A stretch of 61,499 nucleotides of DNA from Dehalococcoidia bacterium. GTDB lineage: Bacteria > Chloroflexota > Dehalococcoidia > DSTF01 > JACRBR01. This document shows, piece after piece, positions 1 through 14,971 of this stretch; position 1 is the first letter of the stretch, and every line of letters starts with the position of its first letter. A program made the position numbers and the translations under genes. Where the stretch lies: positions 1-61,499 of the forward strand of contig JAKFYB010000010.1 in NCBI GenBank assembly GCA_021731085.1, in the 5' to 3' direction. The notes under the pieces were generated by a model, which worked only from the letters and a program-made list of their open reading frames with translations, ran no database searches and was not told the origin of the DNA.

Positions 1-825
1 TGGTGGGGGCGGCGGAGGCGGAGGCGTGCCACCACCAACAACGGTTGGCGTCGCAGGCACGGGCGTCGGCGTCACTGTCACGTAGGCGAGCGAGGTCGCT
101 GTAGCGCATGTCTGGCCGACGACGCATGGGGTGTTCGTGGGAACGACGACCGTGTTGGTCGGTGTGTTTGTCGGCGTGTTCGTTGCTGCCGATGCACCGA
201 CCTGGACGTCGGCTCCCGAGCAGGTCATAGGCACCGAGATGATCGCGTTGCAACTACCCTGCTCGCCGAAGTTTTGGTCGTAGACGTTTCCATCGACGAT
301 GGCGACGGTCGTCACGCCGTCGGCCGCGGTGTAATTGACCCGGGCGAGAACCAAGGACGCGCCATTGGCGAGCGATGGACCATCGGCCGGACCGTTAAAG
401 CAGCCGATGAATGAGTCGGCGATGCTGGGGTCAGCATTGTTGTCTGCGACGGGAGCTGGTGGCGAACATGCCCAGCCTGCGCCTGTCACGGCCGCTTGAT
501 TGAAGTCCGGGTTGCAATTCAGACCCGAGGGGTCACATGCTGGCGTCGCCGGGGTCAGCTGGCCCTGGCCGGTGACCAGGTTAAACCCAAACGCGCCAAT
601 CTGAACCGCGCCGCCGCTGTTGTTCGTAATCACGACGTCAACTGCGAACGCTCCTGCACTTGGGTTACACGACAGCTGAATACCGCCGGTTGCCACGTCG
701 CAGTCGACCGACATCGCGAACGCGTCGGTGCCAGCTTCGGTGGTGGTGGGCGTGGTTGTCCATGTGACAACACCCGCCGTTATTGCGATGATCGCGGCCA
801 CGGATATGGCCAGCCATCTCGTCAT
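1..825 (-). CDS. Secreted cohesin-like surface protein, 3' end outside window
   Basis: The reading frame is open from the ATG at 825 to the window edge (275 codons), so the C-terminus is missing. The start is set by GGAGGA about 8 bases upstream. Residues 1-30 form a signal peptide. One domain of about 180 residues follows, with cysteine-containing signatures DCD, LSC, ACDPSG, NCNPDF, GWACSPPAP, GCFNG and SCNAIISVP. The same signatures occur in the genes at 1633-4614 and 8170-9960. A linker of TNTPT repeats and a run of prolines then leave the window. The domain pattern (ARVNYTA, then a short strand before the SCN motif) resembles a cohesin/CARDB-like beta sandwich. That fold is inferred from similarity to its neighbours. 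Likely exported and surface exposed; ligand unknown. Confidence 0.8.
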   Translation of the reverse strand, partial: MTRWLAISVAAIIAITAGVVTWTTTPTTTEAGTDAFAMSVDCDVATGGIQLSCNPSAGAFAVDVVITNNSGGAVQIGAFGFNLVTGQGQLTPATPACDPSGLNCNPDFNQAAVTGAGWACSPPAPVADNNADPSIADSFIGCFNGPADGPSLANGASLVLARVNYTAADGVTTVAIVDGNVYDQNFGEQGSCNAIISVPMTCSGADVQVGASAATNTPTNTPTNTVVVPTNTPCVVGQTCATATSLAYVTVTPTPVPATPTVVGGGTPPPPPPPP

Positions 826-1185
826 GAGGATCCTCCTCGCTCTTTCCCTGGTGACTAACGGTGCGAACAATACCATCGCGCCGGAATCTGGGGCAATACG
901 ACTGACGAGCTAATGGCTCGCGGTCATGCCTGCCGATGCCGGCGCCTCAGGGGATTCCCTGACTGAAGGAGAACGCCTGAAATGGGCTTCAGGTTAACCG
1001 CGATCCGGGGATCTTTTGAGATTTTATGGAAATGCGATATCTGAGGCTGAACGCCGGCGATCGTTATGTAGCGCTCTGGGGTTGTTTCCACGCTACCGCG
1101 TCTACGTTGTGGTCGGCAGGGAGAGGCGGCAAGCAGGACCCCTGCTCGGTGCCTGCGGTGAGCTGCGCAACGACGCTTGAGGTGG

Positions 1186-1535
1186 GCGACGACGCCGGCT
1201 GAAAGCCCGCGCTTCGGGGATCTTGGGGGCCGCCGAACGCATCGGGGTCTCGGGTGGCGAACGGCGAGGCGCGGCAGAGGTCGCTGGAAAGCGAGCGCCC
1301 CTACTCGGCGATTCGTGGCGCTGGCGCTAAGGGCTTGGCTTGCAGGCGACGACGCGGGCTGAAAGCCCGCGCTCCGGAACTTGTGGGGCGCCGAACGCAT
1401 CGGGGTCTTGGGTGACGATCGGCGAGGGCGCGCAGAGGTCGCTGGAAAGCGAGCGCCCCTACTCGGCGATTCGTGGCGCTGGCGCTAAGGGCTTGGCTTG
1501 CAGGCGACGACGCGGGCTGAAAGCCCGCGCTCCGG
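1186..1535. repeat. Tandem repeat, unit about 158 bp, about 2.2 copies
   Basis: Bases 1274-1377 and 1432-1535 are identical over 104 positions. The flanking sequence from 1186 is a diverged partial copy, giving a period of about 158 bases. Each unit contains a palindrome of the form GCGGGCTGAAAGCCCGC, centred near 1203, 1361 and 1519. The same palindrome is dispersed elsewhere in the window (27074, 39152, 44006). It codes for nothing recognisable. Confidence 0.85.
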
Positions 1536-1551
1536 CATACACGCCAACGCG

Positions 1552-1602
1552 GCAAAACAAGACAAAACAAGAAGAGAGGCCCCCGATGCTCAGGGGCCTC
1601 TC
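1552..1602 (-). terminator. Rho-independent terminator of the LPxSG surface-protein gene
   Basis: Arms 1593-1602 and 1574-1583 form a perfect 10-bp stem (GAGAGGCCCC with its complement) with a 9-base loop. On the minus strand it is followed by a T-rich tail over 1552-1573. It lies 30 bases after the stop at 1633, so it terminates that gene. Confidence 0.9.
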
Positions 1603-1632
1603 CGTTAGGTCACGTTTGATGTGGCGGGGTGG

Positions 1633-4614
1633 TTATTCCTTGCGGCGTCGCCAGACCACTACACCGTAGAGGCCGATGCCTGCGGCCATGATGGAGAGGA
1701 TGCCCACCATCCAGTCGCCGGCCTGGCCGTTGTCACCCTGGCCGGAGTTCGGGAGCGCTGTCGCGCCACCTGCGCCGCCGGGGTTGTTCGTAATGCCGGC
1801 CACGGTGCTGACGGCGGTCACGGTCGAAGCGGGTCGCGTCGTCGTCGCGACGACTGTGCTTGTTCGCGTCGGGTCGTCATCCGTTTCCGTTGGCACCGGC
1901 GTGTGCGTCTTGATCTGTTGCGTCGGCGTCGACGTGACCGTGTGGGTCGCCGTCGATGTCGGCGTGTGCGTAGATGTCGACTCCGGCGTCTCCGTAGCAA
2001 TCTCGACGGTCGGGGTGTGCGTCTTGATTTGCTCCGTTGGCGTCACTTCCGGCGTTTCTGTGGTCTCGACGGTGCGCGTGGCGAGAACCGTGCGCGTCGC
2101 CTGGACCGTGCGAGTCACTTCGACGGTGCGCGTGACCTCAACGGTTTCGGTGACTTCGGGTGTCTCGCCCTCTTCCGGCGTGTTGGTCGCCGTCGCCGTG
2201 TTGGTGGAGGTCGCCACCGGCGTGTCGGTCGCCTCAACGATCGGCGTGCTGGTGGCGGTCGGCGGCTCGACGACAGGCGTGTTCGTCGCCGTCGGCGGGT
2301 CAACGACCGGCGTGTTGGTCGCGGTGGCCGGGTCGGTCACCGTGTTAGTTGCCGTCGCCGGGTCGGTCACCGTGTTGGTTGCCGTCGCGGGGTCGGTCAC
2401 CGTGTTGGTCGCCGTCGGCGGCTCGACAACGGGCGTGTTCGTCGGCACCGGGTCGGCGCCGAAGCTCACGTTGGTCTGCGGGCAGGTCATCGGGACCGAG
2501 ATGATCTCGTTGCAGCTTCCAAGCTCCGTGAAGTCCACGTTGTAGAAGTTGCCATTGAGCATGGTGATGGCGGTTACACCGTCGACGGCGAGGTACGAGA
2601 CCCGCGCGATGACGATCGATGCGCCGGCTGCGAGCGGGCCACCATCGCCACCGCCATTGAAGCAGCCGAGGAAGGAGTCCGTGACCAGCGGGTCAGCGTC
2701 GACAGGCGGGTTCGAAAGAGGAACCGTCATGTCGGGCTGCGGAGCCGGCGGCGAACATGCCCAACCTGCGCCTGTAACGGCGGCCTGGTTGAAGTCCGGG
2801 TTACAGTTCAAGCCCGATGGGTCACACGCGGGAACCGGGGCGACTCCCGTCAAGACGGCCTGGCTGGCCAGCAGGTTGAATCCGAATGCACCGGTCTGGA
2901 TGCCGGTGGCCGAGTTGTTCGTAACGACGACATCGACGGCGAATGCGCCCGCGGGCAGGTTGCTGCAGGACAGCTGGATACCAGCCGCGTTGATGTCGCA
3001 GTCGATGCTCATGACGTAGTCGGCGGCCGGCGGCACGGGCGTGTCGGTGGGCGCTTCGACCGTGTGCGTCGGCGTGTTCGTGTTTGTCGGCACGACCGTG
3101 TTTGTCGGGGTGTCAGTAGGCACGACAACGGTGTTCGTCGGCGTGTCGGTCGGCGGCACAGGAATCGTGTTGGTTGCCGTCGGCGTGTTCGTCGGCGGCA
3201 CAGGAACCGTGTTGGTTGCCGTTGGCGTGTTCGTCGGCGGCACGGTTGTGTTCGTCGGCGTCGGTGTGTTCGTCGGCGGCACGGTCGTGTTGGTCGGCGT
3301 GTTTGTCGCCGTGTTGGTCGGCGGCGCGACCGTGTTGGTGGCCGTCGGTGCGACAACGCCGAAAGAGACATTCGTCTGCGGGCACGTCATCGGAACACTG
3401 ATGATGGCGTTGCAGCTGCCAAGCTCCGTGAAGTCCACGTTGTAGAAGTTGCCGCTGAGCACCGTAAAGGCACTGGCGCCGTTCACCGCCGTGTATGAGA
3501 CGCGGGCGATGACGATCGAAGCGCCAGCCGCGATGTTTCCTCCATCGCCGGCGCCGTTGAAGCAACCGATGAAGGAGTCCGTGACCGCGGGGTCAGCATC
3601 AACAGGTGGGTTCGAGGCCGGAACCTTTACATCGGCTTCCGGAGCCGGAGGCGAGCAAGCCCACCCAGCGCCACCTACGACAGCCTGATTAAAGTCCGGA
3701 TTGCAGTTCAGGCCGGACGGGTCGCAAACAGCAGCCGGCGTACCTGTAAGCACGCTCTGGTTCGCGAGGATGTTAAACCCAAGGGCACCGATCTGCGCGG
3801 CAGTGGCGGTGTTGTTGCTAACGACGATATCAACTGCGTACGTGCCCGCGGTCAGGCCGCTGCACGAGAGTTGGATGCCGGCGGCGACGATGTCGCAGTC
3901 GATGGTCATTGAGTAACCGGCAGTTGTAGCAACCGATGCCGTGGCAGTGCCGCAAACAGCGTTGGACCCATCGGTGTCGGGGTTGCATGTGGCGAGGCCG
4001 GCCTGGCCGGCATTACCAACGAAGACATTGGACAGCGCCAGAGCGGACAGCGAGGTCTCGCTTTCGGCGCCCGCGGTGTAGTGCGCGGTGGCGAGCAGGA
4101 TCGTGCCGCCATCGGGGACGGTGGGGCCGTCGCCGCCTGTGGTGAAGCAGGAGAGGCGCGACCGCGTTGTGTTCGGGTTCGAGTCGACATCCGGGTTGGG
4201 GGCGGGAGGTGTACACGTCCAGCCTGCGCCCGTGACGGTTGCCTGGTTAAAGTCCGGGTTGCAATCGAGGGCTGCACCGGCGCAAGCGGGCGCTGTGGGA
4301 ACCAGCACAGCACTGGAGCTGCTGAAGAGGTCGAAGTTGAACGCGGCTAACTGCTGCGCCTGGTTGTTTCCGGCCTGGCCGACGACATTTCCGAAGACAA
4401 TGCCAACATTGGCTGCGGAACCGGGGGCGAAGGAGCAGTTGTCCTGGACACCAGCGGCGACGAGATCGCAGTCGATGGCGACCCAGTTTGCGTCAGTTGG
4501 CGGCGTGAATGCTTGTGTGGATGTACCACCGCGGAACACGCCCGGAAGCGCCAGCATGAGTGCCAGCGCCAGTCCGGCGGCGAAACCGCCTACCAATAAT
4601 CTTCGACTCGTCAC
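1633..4614 (-). CDS. Large surface protein: three cohesin-like domains, Thr-rich linkers, LPxSG-type C-terminal anchor
   Basis: About 993 residues from a GTG start at 4614, chosen because GGAGG precedes it by 5 bases and a signal peptide (TSRRLLVGG, then a hydrophobic stretch) begins there. An in-frame ATG at 4707 lacks both features. Three domains of 180-190 residues carry the eight-cysteine signature (DCD, LSC, CDPSG, CNPDF, GWxCxPP, GCF, SCN, MTC). The first two are adjacent. The third follows a linker of about 100 residues of PTNTPT units. A second, longer linker changes from TATNTVTDPA units to valine/threonine repeats (VEVTRT). The C-terminus is LPNSG, about 12 polar residues, one membrane span and RRRKE, which matches a sortase sorting signal. 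No sortase gene lies in the window. Likely a wall- or membrane-attached scaffold displaying cohesin-type modules. Confidence 0.85.
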   Translation of the reverse strand: MTSRRLLVGGFAAGLALALMLALPGVFRGGTSTQAFTPPTDANWVAIDCDLVAAGVQDNCSFAPGSAANVGIVFGNVVGQAGNNQAQQLAAFNFDLFSSSSAVLVPTAPACAGAALDCNPDFNQATVTGAGWTCTPPAPNPDVDSNPNTTRSRLSCFTTGGDGPTVPDGGTILLATAHYTAGAESETSLSALALSNVFVGNAGQAGLATCNPDTDGSNAVCGTATASVATTAGYSMTIDCDIVAAGIQLSCSGLTAGTYAVDIVVSNNTATAAQIGALGFNILANQSVLTGTPAAVCDPSGLNCNPDFNQAVVGGAGWACSPPAPEADVKVPASNPPVDADPAVTDSFIGCFNGAGDGGNIAAGASIVIARVSYTAVNGASAFTVLSGNFYNVDFTELGSCNAIISVPMTCPQTNVSFGVVAPTATNTVAPPTNTATNTPTNTTVPPTNTPTPTNTTVPPTNTPTATNTVPVPPTNTPTATNTIPVPPTDTPTNTVVVPTDTPTNTVVPTNTNTPTHTVEAPTDTPVPPAADYVMSIDCDINAAGIQLSCSNLPAGAFAVDVVVTNNSATGIQTGAFGFNLLASQAVLTGVAPVPACDPSGLNCNPDFNQAAVTGAGWACSPPAPQPDMTVPLSNPPVDADPLVTDSFLGCFNGGGDGGPLAAGASIVIARVSYLAVDGVTAITMLNGNFYNVDFTELGSCNEIISVPMTCPQTNVSFGADPVPTNTPVVEPPTATNTVTDPATATNTVTDPATATNTVTDPATATNTPVVDPPTATNTPVVEPPTATSTPIVEATDTPVATSTNTATATNTPEEGETPEVTETVEVTRTVEVTRTVQATRTVLATRTVETTETPEVTPTEQIKTHTPTVEIATETPESTSTHTPTSTATHTVTSTPTQQIKTHTPVPTETDDDPTRTSTVVATTTRPASTVTAVSTVAGITNNPGGAGGATALPNSGQGDNGQAGDWMVGILSIMAAGIGLYGVVVWRRRKE

Positions 4615-4741
4615 GATGACCTCCAAAACCTGAACGCCCTCATCCTCCGGACGATCGTGTTGTCGATGGCCTCCATGCCAAGACTTCCACTTACTCAGCC
4701 GAAACAAAGAAAGCCGCCACTTGTTACGAACGCTTGTCTAC

Positions 4742-6616
4742 TTACGGTTGGACGCACCTCTTCTGAAACACTGCCGCAACGAGCCCAAGGTCGGCGGGAT
4801 TGATGTTCCCGTCTTCCGAAGGATCCTTCTGTTGGGTGTAGCCCGGGTCACCTGGCTGCTGTCCGTAGGCGGCGGCAGTGGTGCCGAGATCCGCGACGTT
4901 GATCAGGCCATCGGGCGACGCCGGCGGGGCGCTGTCTGGACAGAGAATAACACGGCGCGTCGCGTTCAGAACGTCTGCGGGGATGACAGTTCCGTCAACT
5001 TCCAAGACTTGGGCGGTGATTGTAAAGGTCGCCGTTCCGCGGTTGACACCCTGGAAAATGACGTTGACAAGATTGCCTATGCCTGTCGGGCCCTGGGGCA
5101 GATTCGTGCCGCCGGAGCCGAGGGTGACGCAGTCCACGTTTACGGTGTTGGCGCCGTAGATGGTGCCGCCGGGGCAACTCAGTGCACGGCCGGTGCTGGT
5201 GAGGAAGCCACCTTCCTGCCCGCCGCCGACCTGGTAGACGGAACCCGAGCCGGGCATGACCACGGTCCAGGCGGGCGTGACGGTCAGCTGCGTCTTCGTG
5301 TTGGAGACGACGGTGCGCGTCTGGCCGGCGCCGGCGCCTACGGTGATGACGACGCGGCTGCCGACGAGCGAGTTCACCTTGAAGTTCGCGGAGGAGTCAA
5401 CGAGCGTCGTAGACGTGCTACTTGTCGCAACGCCACCGAGAAGCACGACGTCGAACTTGGCGTCGTCGTAGGTGACGGTGATGTTCTCGCCGCCGGGGCG
5501 GCACTGCGACTTGAAGATCTGGAAGTCGGTCCCAGCGGCTGGCGTGCCAACATTCCTGATCTGGAACGCGGTACCGATCGACGGGCCGTCGCGAATGATG
5601 TACGCGGAGGTGTTCGTCGGCGGCTGGACAATGCGGTAGAGGTCGCCGAAGGCCGGCGTCTGTCCGGCATCCCATGCAGGGACGGTGAGCTGCGTGGCCG
5701 TGTTGCTGGTGATGACACGGGAGTCGCCGGCAGCGACGCCGGTGAGGATGTCAACGCGCCTATTGGCGAACGCGTTGACGGTCCAGCTCTGCGTGGCGTC
5801 GGTCATGGTGGTGGACGTCGCGGCTGTTGCGCTGCCGCCGCCGGACGTCGTCCAGGTGCCTTCAATGGTTAGCGTGTTGTTCGTGTTGGAGGCGATGCGT
5901 CGCGACTGGACGCTGGCGCCGCCGCTGTTGATCTGCACCGCTTTGCCCGCCCACTGGTTGGTGGTCCAACTGACGGACGTGTCCTGCAGCGTCGTTGACG
6001 TGCCGCTGGTGGCCGTATCGGTGACGAGCGCAGGCCACTGTGGGAGGGTCAGCGTGTCGGCGTTGTTGGTGGTGATGACGCGGTTCGGTCCGGCGCCAAG
6101 CGATGGCATTTCGAGCGTGTAACCTGTGTATTCGCCGCCGAGCCAGCCGCTGCCGAGGTCGGTGAGCGTGGTCGTCGTAGCGCTCGTCGCTGTGCCAGTA
6201 TCGACAATGCCGCCCCACGCCGTGCTGACAGTGAGGGTGTTGCTTGTGTTGGAGGTGATGGTGCGCCACTGCGGGCTCTGCGTGCCGGAGGTGAGCTGGA
6301 CGTCGTAGCCGGCCCACTGGTTGGTGGTCCAGTTCTTAGTGGTGTCCGTGATGGTTGTGGCGGTTGCGCTGGTGGAATCGCCGGTCGGGATGACGGCGTT
6401 ATCGGCGCAGGTCGTCATGCGGACGTTGAAGGGGAAGATATGCCCTTGGAGGATGACGCCCGATGTCGGGAACGGACGAACCTGACCGAATGCAGGATCG
6501 GCGCTGGCTGGCTGTGGATTGCGACCGTCGAAGGCAACGACCATCGCAACGAGAAACGCGGCGGCGACGAGCAGCAGCGCACGGACAGAGGGCAGAGGAC
6601 AATGGCGCAGGATCAA
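4742..6616 (-). CDS. Secreted repeat protein with split cohesin-like domain and C-terminal dockerin
   Basis: About 624 residues. The start is a TTG at 6616, six bases after AGGAGG, and it begins directly at a signal peptide (LLLVAAAFLVAMVVAF). Five or so units of about 60 residues follow, of the form TSTTLxDxSxxWxxNxWxG, then V-x-ITSG, RxIxSNT and TLTV. The last unit appears inserted into a cohesin-like segment: VTYDDAKFDVVLLGG lies before it and LVNVIFQGVNRGTATFTI after it. The last 70 residues contain two dockerin-like calcium loops, DGLINVADLG and DGNINPADLG, each followed by an Ala-rich helix. Secreted; the dockerin could bind a cohesin of the neighbouring proteins. That pairing is inferred, not shown. 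No terminator is evident after the gene, and the next gene starts 128 bases downstream. Confidence 0.82.
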   Translation of the reverse strand: MILRHCPLPSVRALLLVAAAFLVAMVVAFDGRNPQPASADPAFGQVRPFPTSGVILQGHIFPFNVRMTTCADNAVIPTGDSTSATATTITDTTKNWTTNQWAGYDVQLTSGTQSPQWRTITSNTSNTLTVSTAWGGIVDTGTATSATTTTLTDLGSGWLGGEYTGYTLEMPSLGAGPNRVITTNNADTLTLPQWPALVTDTATSGTSTTLQDTSVSWTTNQWAGKAVQINSGGASVQSRRIASNTNNTLTIEGTWTTSGGGSATAATSTTMTDATQSWTVNAFANRRVDILTGVAAGDSRVITSNTATQLTVPAWDAGQTPAFGDLYRIVQPPTNTSAYIIRDGPSIGTAFQIRNVGTPAAGTDFQIFKSQCRPGGENITVTYDDAKFDVVLLGGVATSSTSTTLVDSSANFKVNSLVGSRVVITVGAGAGQTRTVVSNTKTQLTVTPAWTVVMPGSGSVYQVGGGQEGGFLTSTGRALSCPGGTIYGANTVNVDCVTLGSGGTNLPQGPTGIGNLVNVIFQGVNRGTATFTITAQVLEVDGTVIPADVLNATRRVILCPDSAPPASPDGLINVADLGTTAAAYGQQPGDPGYTQQKDPSEDGNINPADLGLVAAVFQKRCVQP

Positions 6617-6757
6617 TTTCTTCCTCCTAGGAACCTGTTCTCCCCCAGATTCCGTGCGATCCGCAAGCAAACCGCAAAGCCGGTATCCGTACCGGAATTC
6701 CCCCGTTCGTTCGTCGTCTGCTCCCCCTGACGCCTCCTGCAACGCATCGCAGGCTCG

Positions 6758-7930
6758 CTACATATCGATGCGGCGCTCAGCGAGCCGCCGTGAAACCACG
6801 CCCGAGGCCATCGCGATGAGTCCGACGAGGAGGATGGCGAACCCAGCCCAGTACCAGATGGCATCCGGGCCTGTGCTCTGCGGGCCGTACCCGGTGAGCG
6901 GGACGCCATCAGGGCCGCGCACTGTGCCATCGGCGCTGACGGTGCTACCTTCGGGGTAACCGGTTGATTCCAGCTCGGCCGCTGTGAGCGGGCGTTCGCC
7001 TGTGTCGGGCGGAACTATGGCGCCCGTCGTGCCGCTGCCGCTGACTTCGCCGCCGGTCGTTCCACCCGTCGTGCCGTCGGTGGTGGAACCGGAGGTCGTG
7101 CCGCTGGGCGCCGTCGGGTCGGCTGTTGAGCCGCCGGTGGTCGATGTGGGCAGCGTGCGCGGCGTGCCCACGGCGGCGGCGACGGTCTTCTGGTATTCCT
7201 CGCCGGATGCGCCATCCGGTGGTTCCGGCGTCGGGGTGGGCGGCAGCGCCGTGGCAGTTGCCGCGTTTGCACCGGCAACGGAGACAACGCCACTGCCGTA
7301 CGTGAACGTGATGTTCTGCTCAGAGCACTCGTTCCCTTCGCACGTTTCGACGGGGGCGAGGGACGTGTGGCCGACTTCGACGGCGCCTGCCGGAAAGTCA
7401 GGGTCGGGCGCTCCAATGTAGTAGCTGTCGTTCACGTTGCCGTCGGAGTAGCCATCGAACTGGAGGTTCGCGGTGCCAGCCGCCTTCGGCTTAAAGACAA
7501 TCTGCGTGAGGATGCCGTCGCCGTTGGGGCCCTGATTGCCCTGACCACCCTGGATAAGGCCATTTGTCGCGCAACCGACGTGGACAACCGCGTACTGGTT
7601 GACGGTCGCCGCGCCGAGTCCGTGACCGATACAGGTCTGGCTGCGACCGGTCGTCGCAAGAAAGCCGTAGTCGCCGGCGCCGACGTACTCGAGCACCGTG
7701 GGGTCGAATTTCAATGTGACTTCATATGCGCCTAGGTTTTGTGCATTTGACACTTTGATGTCGATTGTGAAATCTCCGTCGCCGACGGCCATCGTCTGCG
7801 ACGCTGGCGACAGCGTGATCGCTGGCACGGCCTGGCCAGAGGCCTGGCCCACGGCGCCGAGGACTACGCCTGCTCCCGCGAGCACGAGCAACGCACCACC
7901 ACCCAACAACACACTCTTCCAACTGCCCAT
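6758..7930 (-). CDS. Membrane-anchored cohesin-domain protein
   Basis: 390 residues, ATG start with AGGAGA nine bases upstream. An N-terminal signal or anchor segment covers residues 8-30. Residues 35-165 form a typical cohesin domain: the segment NLGAYEVTLKFDPTVLEYV and the later GILTQIVFKPKAAGTANLQF-type strands are characteristic. A low-complexity Pro/Thr/Gly/Ser linker leads to a C-terminal membrane span (WAGFAILLVGLIAMASGVV) with a basic tail. This is the most canonical cohesin in the cluster and a likely anchor for the dockerin-bearing neighbours. A PPDTG motif in the linker is too far from the membrane span to be a sorting signal. Confidence 0.87.
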   Translation of the reverse strand: MGSWKSVLLGGGALLVLAGAGVVLGAVGQASGQAVPAITLSPASQTMAVGDGDFTIDIKVSNAQNLGAYEVTLKFDPTVLEYVGAGDYGFLATTGRSQTCIGHGLGAATVNQYAVVHVGCATNGLIQGGQGNQGPNGDGILTQIVFKPKAAGTANLQFDGYSDGNVNDSYYIGAPDPDFPAGAVEVGHTSLAPVETCEGNECSEQNITFTYGSGVVSVAGANAATATALPPTPTPEPPDGASGEEYQKTVAAAVGTPRTLPTSTTGGSTADPTAPSGTTSGSTTDGTTGGTTGGEVSGSGTTGAIVPPDTGERPLTAAELESTGYPEGSTVSADGTVRGPDGVPLTGYGPQSTGPDAIWYWAGFAILLVGLIAMASGVVSRRLAERRIDM

Positions 7931-8086
7931 GCGGAGCGTTCTCCTGACTGAAGCTATCTCGAACCTGACGATCTGCGGACGGGGATGCGGCAGAGTATGG
8001 CCGTTCGCCTGTTCATCTTCAAACGCCGGCCGTACGTGGGTCTAACAGCGCAGCGGACTTCTTACACTCATTTAATAGGTTAGGAA

Positions 8087-8115
8087 GGGGGAGCAGACAG
8101 ATTGTCTGCTCCCCC
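8087..8115 (-). terminator. Terminator-like hairpin after the cohesin-dockerin gene
   Basis: Arms 8087-8099 and 8103-8115 form a perfect 13-bp stem (GGGGGAGCAGACA with its complement) with a 3-base loop. It lies about 55 bases after the stop at 8170 on the minus strand. The following bases (TTCCTAACCTATTAAA) are only moderately T-rich, so termination may be partial. It separates this gene from the cohesin gene at 7930. Confidence 0.7.
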
Positions 8116-8169
8116 CACTTCATCCGATATCAGTCAGAGCCATTGCTCCAACGGTTCTCGTTTCAGGAA

Positions 8170-9960
8170 TTAGTCCTGGAAGGGAACCGGTGGCGCCAGC
8201 GGGCCCTGGTTGTTCGGAATCGGCGCCTGGCAGTCCGAGCCCTGGCGACCAAAGACCTTCTGAACGTCCTTGATGTCGATGTCCAGGTCGTGGAACTGTG
8301 GCTCCAGGTCGAACCACTTGCTGTACAGAAGCCCACCGAAGAAGGCGCCGTAGCGGCTAGCGATTGCCTGGGCGTCCGCAAGGTCGACGTCGCAGTCGAG
8401 GTCGAGGTCACCCTCGAGGATTCGAACTGTGACGGCGAGGTCGCGGCAGAGAATCGTGAGACCACCATTGATCGAGCCCGGGATCGGGTGACCAAGTGTG
8501 TCAACGAGTTCACAGCCGTTGTCCTTGAGGACAGTCAGCACACCGTTGTTGTTGCCCGGGAAGATGTCGTTGTTCAGGTCCGGGTGCGGGATCAGCTCGA
8601 GGCTGGCAAGGTCGAAGGAGCCCGAAGGACCCTGGCCCTGGCCAACGCTGGCGCAACCGAAGTGAATGATGTTCTCAAGAACAAGTGACATCGAGCAGGT
8701 GCCCTGGCCGGGTCCTGCGTTGTCCGGGTTGCAGTCCTGGTTCTCGGGCATGGACGAGTCCAGCTCGTTAACCGACCCGCGGTTCAGGTATCCAGCTCCA
8801 TTGCCACTGGCCTGGGGGCTGAAGACGATGTCGCACGGGTTGACTGACTGAATGACGAAGTTGTCGTACTCGACGCTGAACTCGTACGCGCCCAAACCGT
8901 TGTAGAGCGGGTCGGCCTGCGGCGGTGCAGGAACGTTCAGCGCACGCTCCACGACACGGAGCGAACCTTCACCTGGGCCTGTGCAGGAAACGCCTTCACA
9001 GATCCAGAGGTTGGCGGCGTAGCCGTTTGGCAGCTGGTCAACGTTTGCGTCATTACCCTCGGGGACCTTCTCGATACCCGAGTCCGTGAGCGGCGTCGGC
9101 GAAAGCGTCGGGGTCGACGTGTTCGTCGCCGTGTTGGTCACGGTCGGCGTGTTGGTCGGCGGAACCGGCGTCGGCGTGTCGGTCGGCGGCGCAGGAATCG
9201 TGTTCGTGGCCGTCGGCGTGTTCGTCGGCGTCGGCGGGTCGGCGAGAATGATCTCACCGGCGAAGCAACCGCCTGGAACGCTGATGACAGCGTTGCAGGA
9301 CATGAGCTCACCGAACGACTCGTCGTAGAAGTTTCCATCCTTGATCGTCAGCGGGAAGGTACCCGGGACGGCGCCAGGAAGGACGTTGTACGAAACGGTC
9401 GCGAGGATCTCGCTGGCGGCCGGGTTGGCAGCCATGACCTGGCCATCGGCGCTACCGTTGAAGCAACCGATGAAAGAGGACTCGCCTGGCGGGTTGCTGC
9501 CGTTGTCCTCATCTGGCGCCGGAGGCGAGCACGCCCAGCCACCGCCAGTGTTGAACACCGAGTTGAAGTCCGGGTTGCAGTTCAAACCGGACGGGTCGCA
9601 GGCCGGAAGGTCGACTCCCGGAACGCGAGCCTTCAGGCTCGTAACCGGACCCGGGTGGTCCAGGTTGAATCCCCAGGCGCCGATCTGGCGTGGGGTGCCT
9701 GTGGAGTTACCAGCCGTGACGGCGACCGTGACGACCGCCGGACCCGGCAGGAAAACGGTTGTGGACGGGTCGGTCGCGCCACCCGGGACCGTGTCGACGG
9801 CCAAGTGGAACGTACCGGTTGTGTCCTCGGTACCGTGGTAGAGTTCCGCAAAGGCGGTGTAGTCCGCGCGGCCGTAAGGCAGGCCAACGACGGCGACAAG
9901 AACGCCAATTGCGGTCCCCAGAGCGGCCAAAAGGCCGATCAAAGCTTGGGGCTTCTTCAA
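8170..9960 (-). CDS. Secreted protein with two cohesin-like domains, Thr-rich linker and C-terminal dockerin
   Basis: 596 residues with a TTG start at 9960, eight bases after AGGAGG. Residues 1-32 are a signal peptide. Residues 35-240 are a cohesin-like domain of the eight-cysteine type seen in the genes at 1-825 and 1633-4614 (CDPSG, CNPDF, GGWACSPPAP, GCFNG, SCNAVISVP). A linker of PTNTPT-like units spans about 243-300. A second cohesin-like domain (about 300-505) contains LGAYEFSVEYDNFVIQSV, as in canonical cohesins. The last 80 residues hold a dockerin: DLDLDCDVDLADAQAIA, then HDLDIDIKDVQKVFG. Carrying both partner module types suggests it could bridge or polymerise. The leader carries an unusual distal AAGGAGGTG (see the regulatory entry at 10050). 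Secreted. Confidence 0.85.
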   Translation of the reverse strand: MKKPQALIGLLAALGTAIGVLVAVVGLPYGRADYTAFAELYHGTEDTTGTFHLAVDTVPGGATDPSTTVFLPGPAVVTVAVTAGNSTGTPRQIGAWGFNLDHPGPVTSLKARVPGVDLPACDPSGLNCNPDFNSVFNTGGGWACSPPAPDEDNGSNPPGESSFIGCFNGSADGQVMAANPAASEILATVSYNVLPGAVPGTFPLTIKDGNFYDESFGELMSCNAVISVPGGCFAGEIILADPPTPTNTPTATNTIPAPPTDTPTPVPPTNTPTVTNTATNTSTPTLSPTPLTDSGIEKVPEGNDANVDQLPNGYAANLWICEGVSCTGPGEGSLRVVERALNVPAPPQADPLYNGLGAYEFSVEYDNFVIQSVNPCDIVFSPQASGNGAGYLNRGSVNELDSSMPENQDCNPDNAGPGQGTCSMSLVLENIIHFGCASVGQGQGPSGSFDLASLELIPHPDLNNDIFPGNNNGVLTVLKDNGCELVDTLGHPIPGSINGGLTILCRDLAVTVRILEGDLDLDCDVDLADAQAIASRYGAFFGGLLYSKWFDLEPQFHDLDIDIKDVQKVFGRQGSDCQAPIPNNQGPLAPPVPFQD

Positions 9961-9978
9961 AACTAAAACCTCCTACGA

Positions 9979-10087
9979 TGTAGGGCTGTCGGGTTCAGAG
10001 CACGAACCCTCGAAAATTCTGCTGTGTTCAATCCTGGGTCTTTCGCGTTCACCTCCTTTTTCTGTTCTTCTCCGCTTCGAGCGGAGA
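9979..10087 (-). promoter_or_regulatory. Unusual leader: hairpin plus distal Shine-Dalgarno-like element
   Basis: On the minus strand an 8-bp hairpin (10069-10087, arms TCTCCGCT and AGCGGAGA) is followed 10 bases later by AAGGAGGTG (10050-10058). No start codon lies at a usable distance from it. AGCCCTACA occurs at 9979-9987, then the true ribosome-binding site AGGAGG and the TTG start at 9960. The same order occurs upstream of the gene starting at 14363. It resembles the distal SD-type 5' mRNA stabilisers known in Bacillus. Function here is inferred. Confidence 0.55.
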
Positions 10088-10178
10088 GCAGCCACACCGC
10101 CTTGCTTGCAACTTTGCATCGCCATCGCCGCCTCCCGGGCTCCCCGCCCCGAACGCGTGCGACCGCGTGATGCCGAAC

Positions 10179-11708
10179 TCAGCCTCCGCGCGGGCGCACT
10201 TCGTATGCGCCGGCCGCGGGTACGCAGGCGAATTGCCTGCACACTTCCGGGTCCTCCTGTGTCATGTAGAACGGCACGCGGCCTACGTTCGCTGCGGCCA
10301 GTTCGACAAGGAACCCACTCTCGACGGTCCAGTTGTTGACGAGGCGCACGTCGGGGCGCTGGCCTTCAACTGTTTGCAGATACTGAAGCGGCGCTACGTC
10401 CGCGAACCGGCCATAGACGATGGCGTTCGGACTCACGCCAGCCATCGTCACCTCGGCCGCGTTGCGCACGCGATCCTCGCCGCGCAGGGTGACCAGTTGC
10501 CAGTTGATGGCGAGCGCCATGATGGGCAGGGCGAGCGCCGCGAAGACGAGCCAGGGTGCATCGGCAACCCCGCCGAGCTCCATCGCCCAGTCGAGTCCAA
10601 CCACCATCCAGAGCGACCAGACGACGTACACGGGCAGCATCATGAAGCGCTTGTCGATCGCGCCGTAGCCGATGAAGAAGATGGCGATCGGGAGAGCTGC
10701 ACCGGCGAGCAGGACGAGCAGGGCGCGGTCGCGCTGCCACAAACGGGCGATGCCCATGACGCCCAGCGGGAGGCCGACGACGAGGAACGACCCGGCCAGC
10801 CAACCAGCAAACGTGCCGGCTTCACGAAGCATCGCGACGGGACCATAGGCAAAGACATCGGCCTGGAACTGCTCTGCGCTGACGTGCGCCCAAAAGCCGC
10901 TCCATGATGCGAGATCCGAGATCTGGAGCGAACCGTCGAGTCGGTATTCGCCCGGGCCAAAAGAGACGCCCGTCGCGGAGCGCAGCGGTAGATAGAGATA
11001 GAAGGCGAGGCCCGCGGCGATGCCACCGGCGGCGGCGGCGTATGCGCGTGGCGAACGTTCTCCCGACATCCAGACGAACGCGAGCAGCGCCGGGAGGGTG
11101 AGCGCTGTGCTGGTGCGGTTCGAAAGACTGAGACCAAGCACGAGGCCGACCATGAGGGCGCGGCCCGTCGTCGGTTGCGAGCGCCAGGCAACGGCGGCAA
11201 GCAAGATGCCGGCGAAGAGAAGCGCATCGAGCGTGTAGACCTCGGCGGCGAGCGCGTCGAGCCAGAAGTAGTACGAGAAGCCGAGGGCGAGCGCGCCAGC
11301 AGCGGCGATGACGGGGCGAGTGGTGAGGCGCAGGGCGAGGATGTAAACGAAGCCACAAGCGGCAGCGCCAAGCACCGCGGAGAACATGTTCATGCGGAAG
11401 GCAACAGAGCTGACAGGGAAGAGATGCGAGAAGAGCCATCCGGACAGCGTGTACAGCGGGTAGCCGGGTGCATGCGCGATCCCGAGGGAGTTCGCGGCAG
11501 CAGCGAGTTCGGGGCTGTCTAGGCTGTAAATGTCCGGAGCCATCGTCGCGAGGTACACAATAAATGTGGAGACGACGACGAGCGCGCCGATCAACACCGA
11601 AGGCGACACCCGCGCCACGGCTTTGGTCTCGGCCACCTTAGTGGCCGCCACCGCCGGACGCTGCGTCTGCCGCACGTGCACCTGTCCGAGAGCAAACGTG
11701 TCTGACAC
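10179..11708 (-). CDS. DUF2723/TMEM260-type membrane glycosyltransferase (putative protein O-mannosyltransferase)
   Basis: About 509 residues from GTG 11708, which follows GAGGA. An in-frame GTG/ATG extension to 11903 exists but runs through two hairpins and has no ribosome-binding site. After a short cytosolic N-terminus there are about ten membrane spans. The family signature is at the first external loop: DSPELAAAANSLGIAHAPGYPLYT, here given only as DSPEL, then GIAHAPGYPLYT. The conserved Asp is typical of GT-C fold lipid-linked sugar transferases. Human TMEM260 of this family O-mannosylates extracellular domains. The gene sits inside the surface-protein array, whose linkers are rich in Thr and Ser, so modification of those linkers is a reasonable inference. 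Donor and acceptor are unknown. Confidence 0.82.
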   Translation of the reverse strand: MSDTFALGQVHVRQTQRPAVAATKVAETKAVARVSPSVLIGALVVVSTFIVYLATMAPDIYSLDSPELAAAANSLGIAHAPGYPLYTLSGWLFSHLFPVSSVAFRMNMFSAVLGAAACGFVYILALRLTTRPVIAAAGALALGFSYYFWLDALAAEVYTLDALLFAGILLAAVAWRSQPTTGRALMVGLVLGLSLSNRTSTALTLPALLAFVWMSGERSPRAYAAAAGGIAAGLAFYLYLPLRSATGVSFGPGEYRLDGSLQISDLASWSGFWAHVSAEQFQADVFAYGPVAMLREAGTFAGWLAGSFLVVGLPLGVMGIARLWQRDRALLVLLAGAALPIAIFFIGYGAIDKRFMMLPVYVVWSLWMVVGLDWAMELGGVADAPWLVFAALALPIMALAINWQLVTLRGEDRVRNAAEVTMAGVSPNAIVYGRFADVAPLQYLQTVEGQRPDVRLVNNWTVESGFLVELAAANVGRVPFYMTQEDPEVCRQFACVPAAGAYEVRPRGG

Positions 11709-11825
11709 GTCTTCCTCATTAGCACTGCGTATTCGTTCACCCAGGGAAGCGTCCGTGCTCCGCGGGTCGTTGATGGGGTTTGAAACAGACTTAGGCGGGG
11801 GAGCCTGGTTCTTGCTTCGGAGTTG

Positions 11826-11897
11826 CTGGCGTCCGGCACTCCGTACCGGACGCCAGCCCTTCCGTCTCGGGCGGTACTTCCGGAGAAGTACCGCCCG
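11826..11897 (-). other. Two tandem perfect hairpins between surface-protein and glycosyltransferase genes
   Basis: Hairpin 1 (11868-11897): arms CGGGCGGTACTTC and GAAGTACCGCCCG, 13 bp, with a CGGA tetraloop. Hairpin 2 (11826-11856): arms CTGGCGTCCGG and CCGGACGCCAG, 11 bp, with a 9-base loop. They follow the stop at 11913 by 16 and 57 bases on the minus strand. Neither has a T-run, so they may be processing or 3'-stabilising structures, or partial terminators. Confidence 0.6.
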
Positions 11898-11912
11898 GCT
11901 CATTCCCTGTGG

Positions 11913-14363
11913 CTACGGCAGGTTCTTGGTTGCCGACGAGCTCGTCGGGCCTGCCTCGTTGTACGGCGAGCATGTACCCGAAGCGGTAACTGCCGCTGCG
12001 AGGATACCGCCATCCGCCGCGTTGTTCTGACCGTCCTTGTTGAGGTCACGGTTCGTCGCCAGCGCGTAGCGGCTTACGCCCTGTGCGTTGACAACGTTCG
12101 TGTCCATGCGACCGTTAAGAGGAGCAGCGTCGTGCGAACCGGCTGCCTGCGCGCGGAGACCGCCGTCAGCAGGGTTCTGGTTGCCGTCGCCGTTCATGTC
12201 GGTCACTTCGTCGCCGTCCCGGCAGCCATCGCTGTCGGAGTCGGCAGTGGCCGGGCCGGTGCCGTAGAAGCGAACTTCCACACCATCGCGGAGGCCGGCG
12301 AATGTGCCCGTGGCACCGACGGTGTCGCGGTCGGAGTCTGCATCGGTCTCACCGCTGCAGCCTGCGCCCAGGGGACAGCCTACGCCGTCGCCGTCGATGT
12401 CGTTCAGGATGTTGCCTGGGGCAATGCTGACAGCCATCGAGCGGAAGAAGATTTCCGTCGGTGTGTGGTTGACAGCGGTACCAGGCATGTAGAGACCGTC
12501 GGCGTCACCATCGCCACCACCAGGGGTGGTTGCGTTGGCGGCGGGCTGCGCACAGCCAGCAGCCGTCGGAACAATGGCGCCCGCGGTGCAGCTCTGTGCT
12601 TCCGGCAGAGCAACACAACCTGCGTCAGCGGCGGCTGTGCGGCAGGAGGCGTCGGGCCGGCTGCGGAACTGGCACTCGCGGCCATCCAGGACCATGTCGA
12701 AGTCGACATCACCCAGGGTGGTGCTCATCGTGCGAATTGGTGCGGTTCCACCCACGTAGGCAACGCCTACGCAAACGCTCGTCTTGAGCGGGCCAGCGCC
12801 GTCCGTGTCGGTCGGGCCGGACCAGGGAGCGATGCGGAGCAGCGGCTCCGTGAGGTCGGGAATCGCGTCGTTGTCGTCGTCGGTGTCACAGGCGTCGCCC
12901 GAGACATCCTCGTTCGGGTTGGTGCGGTCACCCGTGCTGGTGTTCGCGCCAACCTGTGGGCCCGCGCCATCCGGGTCAGCGTTTCCACCCATGCCGTGGT
13001 ACTGCCACAGCGAGTCGGTGTTGAGCTGCGTCGGGTTGGCCTCGTTCGGGCAGTTGTCGTCCGTCAGATCCGCCGAGTCGTAGAGGAGCTCGGGGTTGAG
13101 GGCGGCAACGCTGAGGTTGTTGGTTCCAGGAACATTCGCGCCGTTTGTCGGAATGTTGTCCTGCTTGTCGGCTTGGCCGTCGTTGTCGCTGTCGCTGTCG
13201 GCCGGGTCGGTGAACTGGAAGATTTCCTCGTAGTCCGTGGCACCGTCGTTGTCCGTGTCGGTGTCCGTCGGGTCCGAGTTGTACGCGCGCTCGACGCCGT
13301 CCGGCACGAGGTCACCATCGGTGTCCTTGTTCGCGTCGTTGGAGTCAGAGCTGTCCTGGTCGCAGTCGCCGTCAGCGTCGGGGAGCCCGGCGCCGATGAC
13401 GTCGCACTGCCAGTCGAGGATGCGTGCGAGGGAGTGGTCGCCCAGGTCGAAGTCCGACTGGAGGACCGTCCACCGCGGGATGATCGTGTTGCCGGCCGGC
13501 GTCACCAGGTAACCGACCTGGGAGACCGAGTCCTGCGGCGATGAAAGGCAGAGCGAAACGTCATCGCTCGCCGGGTTGTCAGGCGAACCACCGAGGAGCG
13601 CCTGGTTGACGTTCAGGCCCGTCTGGCCTGGGTACGTCGACTGGTAGACCACGTTGTTCAGCTTCGAACCACCGGGAATCGCGAACGGCAGCGTGCCGTC
13701 GATGTAGAGGGTGGTCAGGTTGGACAGGTCCGAAGAGCGGAACGTCCAGCTGTTTGGCATCGAGACAGCGCCGTGGATGTAGCTGTCCGGGTCGGCTCCG
13801 CCGAGTGGGCCGTTACCACCGAGGGCAACTGCCGCGGCAATGCGCTCGAAGGTCGGCGTGTTCCACGTGGCGGCGTTCGGCCAGCCGGCCGGGGCGCCAC
13901 CGGGACCACCGGAGGCAAGGATGTCGATCTGCTGGTTGCAGAAGATGTCCGTGCGGGAGGTGATGTTACCGACGACCGTACCGGCCGTGCAGCGGTTGTT
14001 TGCGCCCGGCGTGCAAGCGATCGCCGTGTTGCCCCACTCACCCGTGTCGCTGGGCGTGAAGCCCGCGGGGAGGGTCAAGCGGTTACCGAGGGGCAGGTTG
14101 ATGATCTGCCACGACGTGTAGTTCGTGCTCGGCGTAAGTGTTGTCGGGTTGGCAGGGTTGCAAACCACGCGAGCACCGGCGATAACCGGGTAGTTCGCGG
14201 GGTTTGTGTCGTAACACTGGTCGACGCTGATTTCCTTGGCGTTGCCGGCCGTCGAGTTGAAGTCCTGCAACGGGACACCGGACACGGACTGGTTGAAGAG
14301 TCCGAGATATCCGAAAACCAGGGCCGCCGTGAGCGCACCGAGAATGGTGAGCTTCTTAGGCAT
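11913..14363 (-). CDS. Secreted calcium-binding protein with thrombospondin type 3 repeats and dockerin-like C-terminus
   Basis: About 816 residues from ATG 14363, chosen because AGGAGG lies seven bases upstream and the signal peptide starts MPKKLTILGALTAAL. An ATG 24 bases further upstream lacks a site. The N-terminal 330 residues are a secreted domain I do not recognise. The centre (about 330-700) is rich in Asp-based calcium motifs of thrombospondin type 3 kind (DADGDCDQD, DTDGDLVPDGVE, DTDNDGATDYEE, DSDNDGQADKQD). Near the end are two dockerin-like loops, DMNGDGNQNPADGG and DLNKDGQNNAADGG, each followed by an Ala-rich helix. A rigid, calcium-dependent extracellular protein, potentially docked to the cohesins nearby. 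Its leader shares the distal SD element seen before the gene at 9960. Confidence 0.83.
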   Translation of the reverse strand: MPKKLTILGALTAALVFGYLGLFNQSVSGVPLQDFNSTAGNAKEISVDQCYDTNPANYPVIAGARVVCNPANPTTLTPSTNYTSWQIINLPLGNRLTLPAGFTPSDTGEWGNTAIACTPGANNRCTAGTVVGNITSRTDIFCNQQIDILASGGPGGAPAGWPNAATWNTPTFERIAAAVALGGNGPLGGADPDSYIHGAVSMPNSWTFRSSDLSNLTTLYIDGTLPFAIPGGSKLNNVVYQSTYPGQTGLNVNQALLGGSPDNPASDDVSLCLSSPQDSVSQVGYLVTPAGNTIIPRWTVLQSDFDLGDHSLARILDWQCDVIGAGLPDADGDCDQDSSDSNDANKDTDGDLVPDGVERAYNSDPTDTDTDNDGATDYEEIFQFTDPADSDSDNDGQADKQDNIPTNGANVPGTNNLSVAALNPELLYDSADLTDDNCPNEANPTQLNTDSLWQYHGMGGNADPDGAGPQVGANTSTGDRTNPNEDVSGDACDTDDDNDAIPDLTEPLLRIAPWSGPTDTDGAGPLKTSVCVGVAYVGGTAPIRTMSTTLGDVDFDMVLDGRECQFRSRPDASCRTAAADAGCVALPEAQSCTAGAIVPTAAGCAQPAANATTPGGGDGDADGLYMPGTAVNHTPTEIFFRSMAVSIAPGNILNDIDGDGVGCPLGAGCSGETDADSDRDTVGATGTFAGLRDGVEVRFYGTGPATADSDSDGCRDGDEVTDMNGDGNQNPADGGLRAQAAGSHDAAPLNGRMDTNVVNAQGVSRYALATNRDLNKDGQNNAADGGILAAAVTASGTCSPYNEAGPTSSSATKNLP

Positions 14364-14971
14364 GAAAATCCTCCTGATTGGATTCATGATTGATTGTGTA
14401 GGGCTAACGTCTTTACGGGACCTAACCGCACCTCCTTGTTTGCATCGTCCGTTGTGCGGACGCCTACTGATTCACCAAATCCCGTGCTACCGAGATTGCT
14501 GATCACTGTGGAGGTTGTTGGGTGTGCTGGTGGCAGGGGAATCACCCAACTCTCCGGCGTGGTCAGCCGAAAAACGCTATATCGCGGACAACAAACGAGA
14601 GACGGTCAGCTGCACCTTCTCGTTTGCTCCTTCCGTGGCGGGAAGAACGGTCTATTTAATTGGGTCAGTCCGAAACCGTGGCGGGGGAGTTGGACAGAAC
14701 CACCAGTGGGGTCTATGAAAACACCCTCTCCCTTAGGTGTCAACCCCCTTTGGGAGCCAATTTCGAACCTGAATGCCATTCATATTCACGAAAACTGCTG
14801 CATGTATCGAAGCTAGTGACGATATCGAAGCCGACGGCCAGATTCGTTCACATGTCCGTAACATTCTTCAAATTCCCGTCAAGATTGGAAGATCATTACC
14901 GGAACAAGATTTCCGTATTTCGTCAATAGGCCTCGACTGGCCAACTTCAAGGAACCGCGGTCGTTGCTATC
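14364..14971. other. Divergent intergenic interval
   Basis: About 600 bases, noticeably more AT-rich than the genes, between divergent genes. On the minus strand it holds the leader of the calcium-binding protein (14397-14462). A 9-bp inverted repeat, CAAACGAGA with TCTCGTTTG, lies around 14594-14635. I see no gene. Open frames in it lack ribosome-binding sites and codon bias. Promoters for both flanking genes should lie here, but I cannot place them reliably. Confidence 0.5.
14397..14462 (-). promoter_or_regulatory. Unusual leader: hairpin plus distal Shine-Dalgarno-like element
   Basis: Minus strand order: hairpin 14446-14462 (arms CGTCCG and CGGACG), then AAGGAGGTG at 14429-14437 with no start codon near it. 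AGCCCTACA follows at 14397-14405, then the true AGGAGG and ATG 14363. The hairpin-to-AAGGAGGTG gap (8 bases) and the AGCCCTACA box match the leader of the gene at 9960 (gap 10). Two independent surface-protein genes therefore share the arrangement. Confidence 0.55.

Follow-up and report, generated by a model that had tools for sequence, protein, structure and literature searches.

A sortase-linked cohesin-dockerin locus in a Dehalococcoidia genome: probable anchoring core of a non-cellulosomal surface display

Seven genes at the left end of a contig from a Dehalococcoidia bacterium probably encode the anchoring core of a non-cellulosomal cohesin-dockerin display, in which a sortase-anchored scaffold would dock the exoproteome, as judged from sequence and modelled structure. 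The stretch analysed (the window, 61,499 bases) is one whole contig, C22, of the organism's own genome, G000, a 3.58-Mb draft in 52 contigs with 96.6% completeness. Cohesins and dockerins are known mainly from cellulosomes. The minus strand carries all seven open frames, as the initial annotation had described, and transcription runs from 14387 toward position 1 in the order P7, glycosyltransferase (GT), P5, P4, P3, P2 and P1, with P1 passing the contig end. Four names are used for the modules. CohX is the repeated 175-185-residue domain of P1, P2 (three copies) and P5; CohB is the second cohesin-like domain of P5, beside its dockerin; DocX is the dockerin type at the end of P3; and DocY is a second dockerin type, represented by the P5 tail. 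The features of the locus are listed below (TM, transmembrane segment).

1..876, minus strand: P1, exported protein with one CohX (199-720) and a Thr/Pro linker, cut at the contig end
1633..4707, minus strand: P2, predicted anchored scaffoldin with three CohX, long Thr/Pro linkers and an LPNSG-TM-RRRKE tail
3946..4479, minus strand: CohX domain 1 of P2
3358..3915, minus strand: CohX domain 2 of P2
2458..3018, minus strand: CohX domain 3 of P2, the copy that was modelled, with a cohesin fold
1636..1755, minus strand: predicted signal of P2 for cell-wall sorting by a sortase (LPNSG, then a hydrophobic stretch and RRRKE), from sequence
4742..6742, minus strand: P3, with a cohesin split by a repeat insert and a C-terminal DocX dockerin
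4964..5272, minus strand: C-terminal part of the P3 cohesin (46 bits, E 7e-14)
4754..4921, minus strand: DocX dockerin of P3, loops INVADLG and INPADLG
6758..7930, minus strand: P4, a single canonical cohesin followed by a VPLTG-TM-RR anchor
7469..7804, minus strand: cohesin domain of P4 (PF00963)
6761..6904, minus strand: putative sorting signal and membrane anchor of P4, from sequence
8170..9960, minus strand: P5, putative adaptor with CohX, CohB and DocY
9259..9741, minus strand: CohX domain of P5, found with the CohX profile
8188..9075, minus strand: CohB-DocY unit of P5, kept across the order
8230..8418, minus strand: DocY dockerin-like module of P5, recognised through homologues, model of low confidence
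10179..11903, minus strand: GT, TMEM260-like membrane glycosyltransferase (PF11028, formerly DUF2723)
11913..14387, minus strand: P7, exported, with calcium repeats of the TSP3 type and a DocX-like end that is weak and split

Cohesin-like domains had been proposed for five of the proteins, and Pfam, lineage profiles and structure together supported them in P1 to P5. Only the P4 cohesin rose above the Pfam cut-off (PF00963, 34.7 bits), with P1, P2, P3 and P5 below it. By themselves, Pfam and NCBIfam missed four of the five cohesin proteins and every dockerin of the window. The prediction that the modules would match cohesin and dockerin profiles therefore held within Pfam for P4 only, the others being detected solely with lineage-specific profiles and structure. 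With a profile built from the cohesins of this lineage, the P3 cohesin gave the score listed above, the best shuffled control having E 0.03. Several repeats of about 55-65 residues (TSTTLTDTSxxWTxNxxAG...SNTxxTLTV; approximately 5240-6380) interrupt this domain.

The CohX profile had no match among PDB sequences, so the assignment of this domain required a comparison of folds. The AlphaFold2 model of CohX, built from a 24-copy alignment, reached a predicted local distance difference test score (pLDDT) of 87.9 and a predicted template modelling score (pTM) of 0.87, and its low-confidence region was a loop at residues 97-108. When the model was searched against the PDB with Foldseek, cohesins led the matches with E values down to 3.6e-7. 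Re-alignment of the 50 best structure matches returned cohesins in 50 of 50 cases, the top one having a Z score of 12.5 over 131 residues at 2.4 A. The hhalign comparison of CohX with the canonical cohesins of the lineage gave a probability of 94.9%, and domains on contigs C1 and C18 of G000 matched both PF00963 and the CohX profile, forming a bridge in sequence. On the evidence of the modelled fold, CohX is a divergent cohesin. The CohB model, of moderate confidence, also had cohesins at the head of its structure match list. CohX had a narrower distribution than the CohB-DocY unit, being present in 9 of 40 relatives and in 2 of 400 genomes drawn across the phylum.

Dockerin-like C-termini had been noted on three proteins. 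The case was firm for P3, came through homologues for P5 and was weak for P7, and both cohesin and dockerin-like modules were present in two proteins, P3 and P5, as annotated. With the threshold relaxed to E 1, PF00404 still gave no match to any of the three dockerins of the window, while about 20 dockerin copies elsewhere in G000 passed its cut-off. A profile made from these Pfam-detected G000 dockerins, with P3 not included, matched the P3 tail with 32.9 bits (E 9e-9). When the DocX profile was compared with solved structures, cellulosomal dockerins came first (2y3n, 2ccl and 1ohz; E 7e-10), and through this profile the P3 tail is assigned to the type I dockerins. The P7 tail was scored with a later profile, A5, which includes P3 but not P7, and gave weak matches to two loops (E 2e-4 and 5e-3) that stand apart, with about 30 residues between them.

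The DocY module of P5 sits behind CohB in the copies aligned. PF00404 did not reach P5 itself, and a homologue on contig C11 scored 16.8 bits, under the cut-off. The CohB-DocY unit was found in 24 of 393 genomes of the class and was strong in all examined members of the order save family f3. The D-DIDIKD loop of DocY was largely constant across the order, as expected for a conserved core contact. Copy numbers of CohB-DocY and DocX were correlated in a set of 40 genomes that are related to one another (0.87 over all 40, 0.82 within the order). CohX and DocX copy numbers were less well correlated, with a rho of 0.62 over the 40 genomes that fell to 0.45 (p 0.06) within the order, and this relation was dropped as evidence.

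Outside the window, the dockerins were distributed over much of the exported protein repertoire. DocX matched 63 places in G000, and for 53 of 60 aligned distinct modules the distance to the C-terminus was no more than 20 residues. Of 57 DocX proteins, 51 showed a hydrophobic stretch close to the frame start, against 115 of 533 control frames, by a crude test that is not a signal-peptide predictor and with control frames that include non-coding ones. The Pfam scan of the cargo covered 46 DocX proteins without CohX (25 of 47 families listed), with 40 scanned singly. The enzymes comprised subtilases (4), a penicillin amidase, a carboxylesterase, a beta-lactamase-family hydrolase, metallophosphoesterases (2) and glucose/sorbosone dehydrogenases (2). 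HtaA (heme-binding), LamG and beta-helix proteins and propellers of the Kelch, NHL, RCC1 and PD40 types were further cargo, and TSP3 repeats occurred in 15 DocX proteins. No glycoside hydrolase was found among the DocX proteins scanned or among 10 CohX proteins, and in about 55 dockerin and cohesin proteins covered by the scans there was no polysaccharide lyase and no cellulose-binding module either. The defining enzymes were thus looked for and not found, so the system is not a cellulosome; the same had been concluded earlier from the seven genes, and it extends to the cargo scanned elsewhere in the genome. The proposal of a non-cellulosomal surface array with a linked glycosyltransferase was upheld but incomplete, as the seven genes appear to be only the core of a genome-wide network.

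Multi-cohesin scaffoldins without a catalytic part were represented by P2 (three CohX) and by proteins on contigs C24 (five) and C11 (several), and CohX and DocX were combined in several other G000 proteins. A single-sequence search counted 33 CohX copies in G000 and a profile search 36. These are likely undercounts, because the repeats probably broke the assembly: the frames at G000:C24:53488-58029 (five CohX) and C37:21322-24603 (two CohX), both with long TNTP-type linkers, are cut at contig ends. The frame L105:2421-9935 (G000:C11:94420-101934) spans 2505 residues and holds about five canonical cohesins, three CohX and an LPFAG-TM tail. It contains an internal signal-like stretch, and is either a giant scaffoldin or two fused genes.

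The dockerin loops carried a motif that differed by species and recurred in both loops: mostly N[VP]AD in G000, NSGDQL in the congeneric G001, NVIDL in G002, NSTD in G004, NGLDL in G005 and NIFDL in G006. The P3 dockerin of the operon matched the motif of its own genome in most cases. We ranked 54 dockerin columns by within-genome minus between-genome identity, using sets non-redundant at 85% identity (41 sequences from G000, 20 from G001, 11 from G002 and 8 from G006). The top eight species-differentiated columns were exactly 11, 12, 14 and 15 and the symmetric 41, 42, 44 and 45, and the calcium-ligand columns showed almost no between-species difference. If columns are taken as exchangeable, exactly these eight would arise by chance about once in a billion, although the pattern was noticed before the test. 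In the C. thermocellum dockerin 1ohz, the residues aligned with columns 11-12 and with columns 41-42 are its two Ser-Thr pairs; 2ccl, titled as an S45A/T46A mutant, departs from 1ohz precisely at columns 41-42. These Ser-Thr residues are the established dockerin recognition code (PMC5772552), and the characteristic feature of dual-mode binding is two-fold symmetry (PMC5429695). The simplest reading of these alignments is that a common type of partner constrains most dockerins of one genome, with a change of specificity from species to species.

Minority motifs were also present in G000, namely NSLD (C24 and C10) and NSND (C1:17343, C3:47096 and 48562, and C8:134079), and these classes may correspond to distinct specificities of docking. 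Across species, the dockerin loops of P7 and P3 vary, but within a genome they look similar, for example TGDFL in G004 (L154, G004:C10; L192, G001:C243).

The two C-terminal anchors foreseen in the initial annotation corresponded to the LPNSG-TM-RRRKE tail of P2 and the VPLTG-TM-RR tail of P4, the latter with a divergent motif. LPxTG-type tails occurred on other cohesin proteins too. In G001 and G002, the protein at the place of P1 ends in a sortase-type tail (ITLPDTG-TM-basic), and P4 is kept in relatives as an anchored single-cohesin protein. Conservation of the array, on which its interpretation had been made to depend, was found across the order. The gene order of the window recurs on contig G001:C243, which runs from P7 through GT, P5, P4 and P3 into the beginning of a CohX protein, with identities of 42% for P7, 65% for GT, 62% for P5, 49% for P4 and 46% for P3, and G002:C21 keeps the order P7-GT-P5-P4-P3. 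The glycosyltransferase gene adjoins P5 in three genomes (G000, G001 and G002). It is missing between P7 and P5 on G004:C10, a single contig that carries P7-P5-P4-P3, three more proteins ending in PPxTG-TM, three sortases and gyrA. On G001:C260 and G002:C2, three sortase genes come after those for proteins like P2 and P1, and precede a DJ-1/PfpI gene and gyrA. G000 has only two sortases, both at the extreme left of contig C21 and ahead of DJ-1/PfpI and gyrA. Because of this synteny with the relatives, it is very probable that C22 and C21 connect close to their left ends, and the window's left end, read in this way, truncates a sortase-linked operon. The DUF2723/TMEM260-type assignment of GT was confirmed by PF11028 (E 4.6e-28; 98.6 bits against a cut-off of 24.2). 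The sole other TMEM260-like glycosyltransferase gene of the genome is at G000:C9:13823-14266 (E 1.5e-33).

We propose that the sortases encoded after the operon would fix the CohX scaffoldins P2 and P1, and probably P4, to the envelope, where the cohesins of these three proteins would present docking sites. About 60 exported proteins with a C-terminal DocX could dock onto them, and peptidases, esterases, an amidase, phosphoesterases, a heme-binding protein and beta-propeller proteins would thereby be kept at the surface. P5 would serve as an adaptor, with its DocY docking to a conserved anchored cohesin, for which P4 is the best guess, and its CohX offering a further site. The TMEM260-type enzyme would probably O-glycosylate the scaffold at the Ig-like cohesin domains or the Thr/Pro linkers. 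Both are plausible substrates because human TMEM260 O-mannosylates the Ig-like IPT domains of surface receptors (PMC11292533). The window enzyme resembles the TMEM260 O-mannosyltransferases (GT117) in its PF11028 match, and differs from them in being bacterial and in lying in an operon with cohesin proteins; its activity is predicted from sequence. Binding, cohesin-dockerin pairing, covalent anchoring and glycosylation are all steps that we infer.

Several observations weigh against this proposal, which is built on sequence and modelled structure. In the AlphaFold model of the CohB-DocY unit, DocY was of low confidence, and the model, returned with no inter-domain error, cannot show an interface. 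The dockerin of P7 is weak, and the sortases of G000 lie on another contig than the locus, joined to it by synteny only. Some relatives have DocX without CohX. In a comparison of three genomes, no CohX face clearly co-varied with the dockerin code (best value 0.28, against 0.53 for the dockerins). Because the CohX columns were weakly differentiated and only six distinct G002 sequences were available, no CohX-DocX pairing is claimed. The relatives with DocX but no CohX also favour a reading in which the modules no longer pair; CohX would then serve as an Ig-like adhesin or spacer of a generic kind, and DocX would cap the C-terminus, stabilised by calcium, or act as some other sorting signal. 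CohX is moreover very divergent at the sequence level, without a PDB match by sequence, and its binding to DocX is predicted from sequence and fold. However, the exact cohesin-contact positions are conserved within species and different between them in both loops, which a cap would not predict, and we regard the loss of pairing as improbable.

The initial annotation had suggested a self-assembling outer layer, which would amount to an S-layer-like sheath cross-linked by the operon's own cohesins and dockerins, with the other dockerin proteins secondary. P3 and P5 hold both modules and could polymerise, the combination of CohX and DocX recurs in other proteins of the genome, and the operon is conserved. 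Against this, no SLH or known S-layer domain was found in the seven proteins up to E 1, and the scaffolds bear sortase-type anchors. Docking of the exoproteome explains more than a layer does, because most dockerins are on exported enzymes and propeller proteins rather than structural subunits. A layer is thus less supported, though possible as a by-product, and the sheath as the main function seems unlikely. A disguised cellulosome or other polysaccharide-degrading complex, with carbohydrate-active enzymes too divergent for Pfam, finds a parallel in the similar layout of the anchored single cohesin and the dockerin-bearing adaptor of the Ruminococcus sca cluster (PMC5301203), and the cargo does include LamG and beta-helix proteins. 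The scans described above, which returned neither the two enzyme classes nor the binding module for the roughly 55 dockerin and cohesin proteins covered, make this reading very improbable indeed.

Among known systems, the cohesins of Archaeoglobus fulgidus and Clostridium perfringens (2xdh, 2jh2 and 2vo8) share the fold in a non-cellulosomal setting and were among the structural matches of CohX and CohB. Those organisms have few cohesin modules per genome and, to our knowledge, no scaffold network on the scale of G000. The anaerobic methanotrophic (ANME) archaea carry numerous proteins with dockerins or cohesins although cellulose degradation is absent, and their scaffoldin-like proteins contain as many as five cohesins (PMC9012536). 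Their large non-cellulosomal set resembles that of G000, but they are archaeal and their common cargo is ABC-transporter substrate-binding proteins, whereas G000 is bacterial and carries peptidases, esterases and propellers. In Candidatus Stygibacter (Cloacimonadota), a cellulosome-like complex has C-terminal dockerins on exported enzymes including serine peptidases (PMC8542988). It is similar in its large multi-cohesin scaffoldin, its dockerin-tagged exported enzymes and its uncultured non-clostridial lineage. It differs in a cargo that includes GH18 and GH57 and in a scaffold with carbohydrate-binding modules and a C-terminal attachment domain, none of which was found here, while sortase-type tails, CohX, the sortase-linked operon and the glycosyltransferase set G000 apart. 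In the sca cluster of Ruminococcus flavefaciens (ScaC-ScaA-ScaB-CttA-ScaE), the LPXTG-anchored single cohesin ScaE holds the X-dockerin of the adaptor, and the cluster encodes both adaptors that bear a module-plus-dockerin dyad and cohesins that recruit enzymes (PMC5301203). P4 is laid out as ScaE and P5 as an adaptor, but the R. flavefaciens system has the glycoside hydrolases and carbohydrate-binding modules of a true cellulosome, and it has no CohX. A literature search, with most subscription papers outside its reach, found no paper on such a system in Chloroflexi. Non-cellulosomal sets (ANME) and a cellulosome-like set with peptidases (Ca. Stygibacter) are thus already known; the CohX subfamily, the sortase-linked operon with its glycosyltransferase, the kind of cargo and its scale, and a code that is specific to each species and changes in concert are new.

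The finding would place the cohesin-dockerin pair, at a cellulosome-like scale, in the service of a cargo of proteases, esterases and propellers. The concerted change of both recognition loops amounts to a natural experiment on how a binding code shifts in tens of proteins, and protein engineers might obtain mutually orthogonal binding pairs from the system. It is quite possible, though rather less likely than not, that the dockerin has become the order's general tag for retaining the exoproteome at the surface, with a code at the cohesin contact that drifts concertedly in dozens of dockerins per genome and gives each species a private lock and key. If this is true, the evolution of cohesin-dockerin specificity and private docking in mixed communities would become directly testable.

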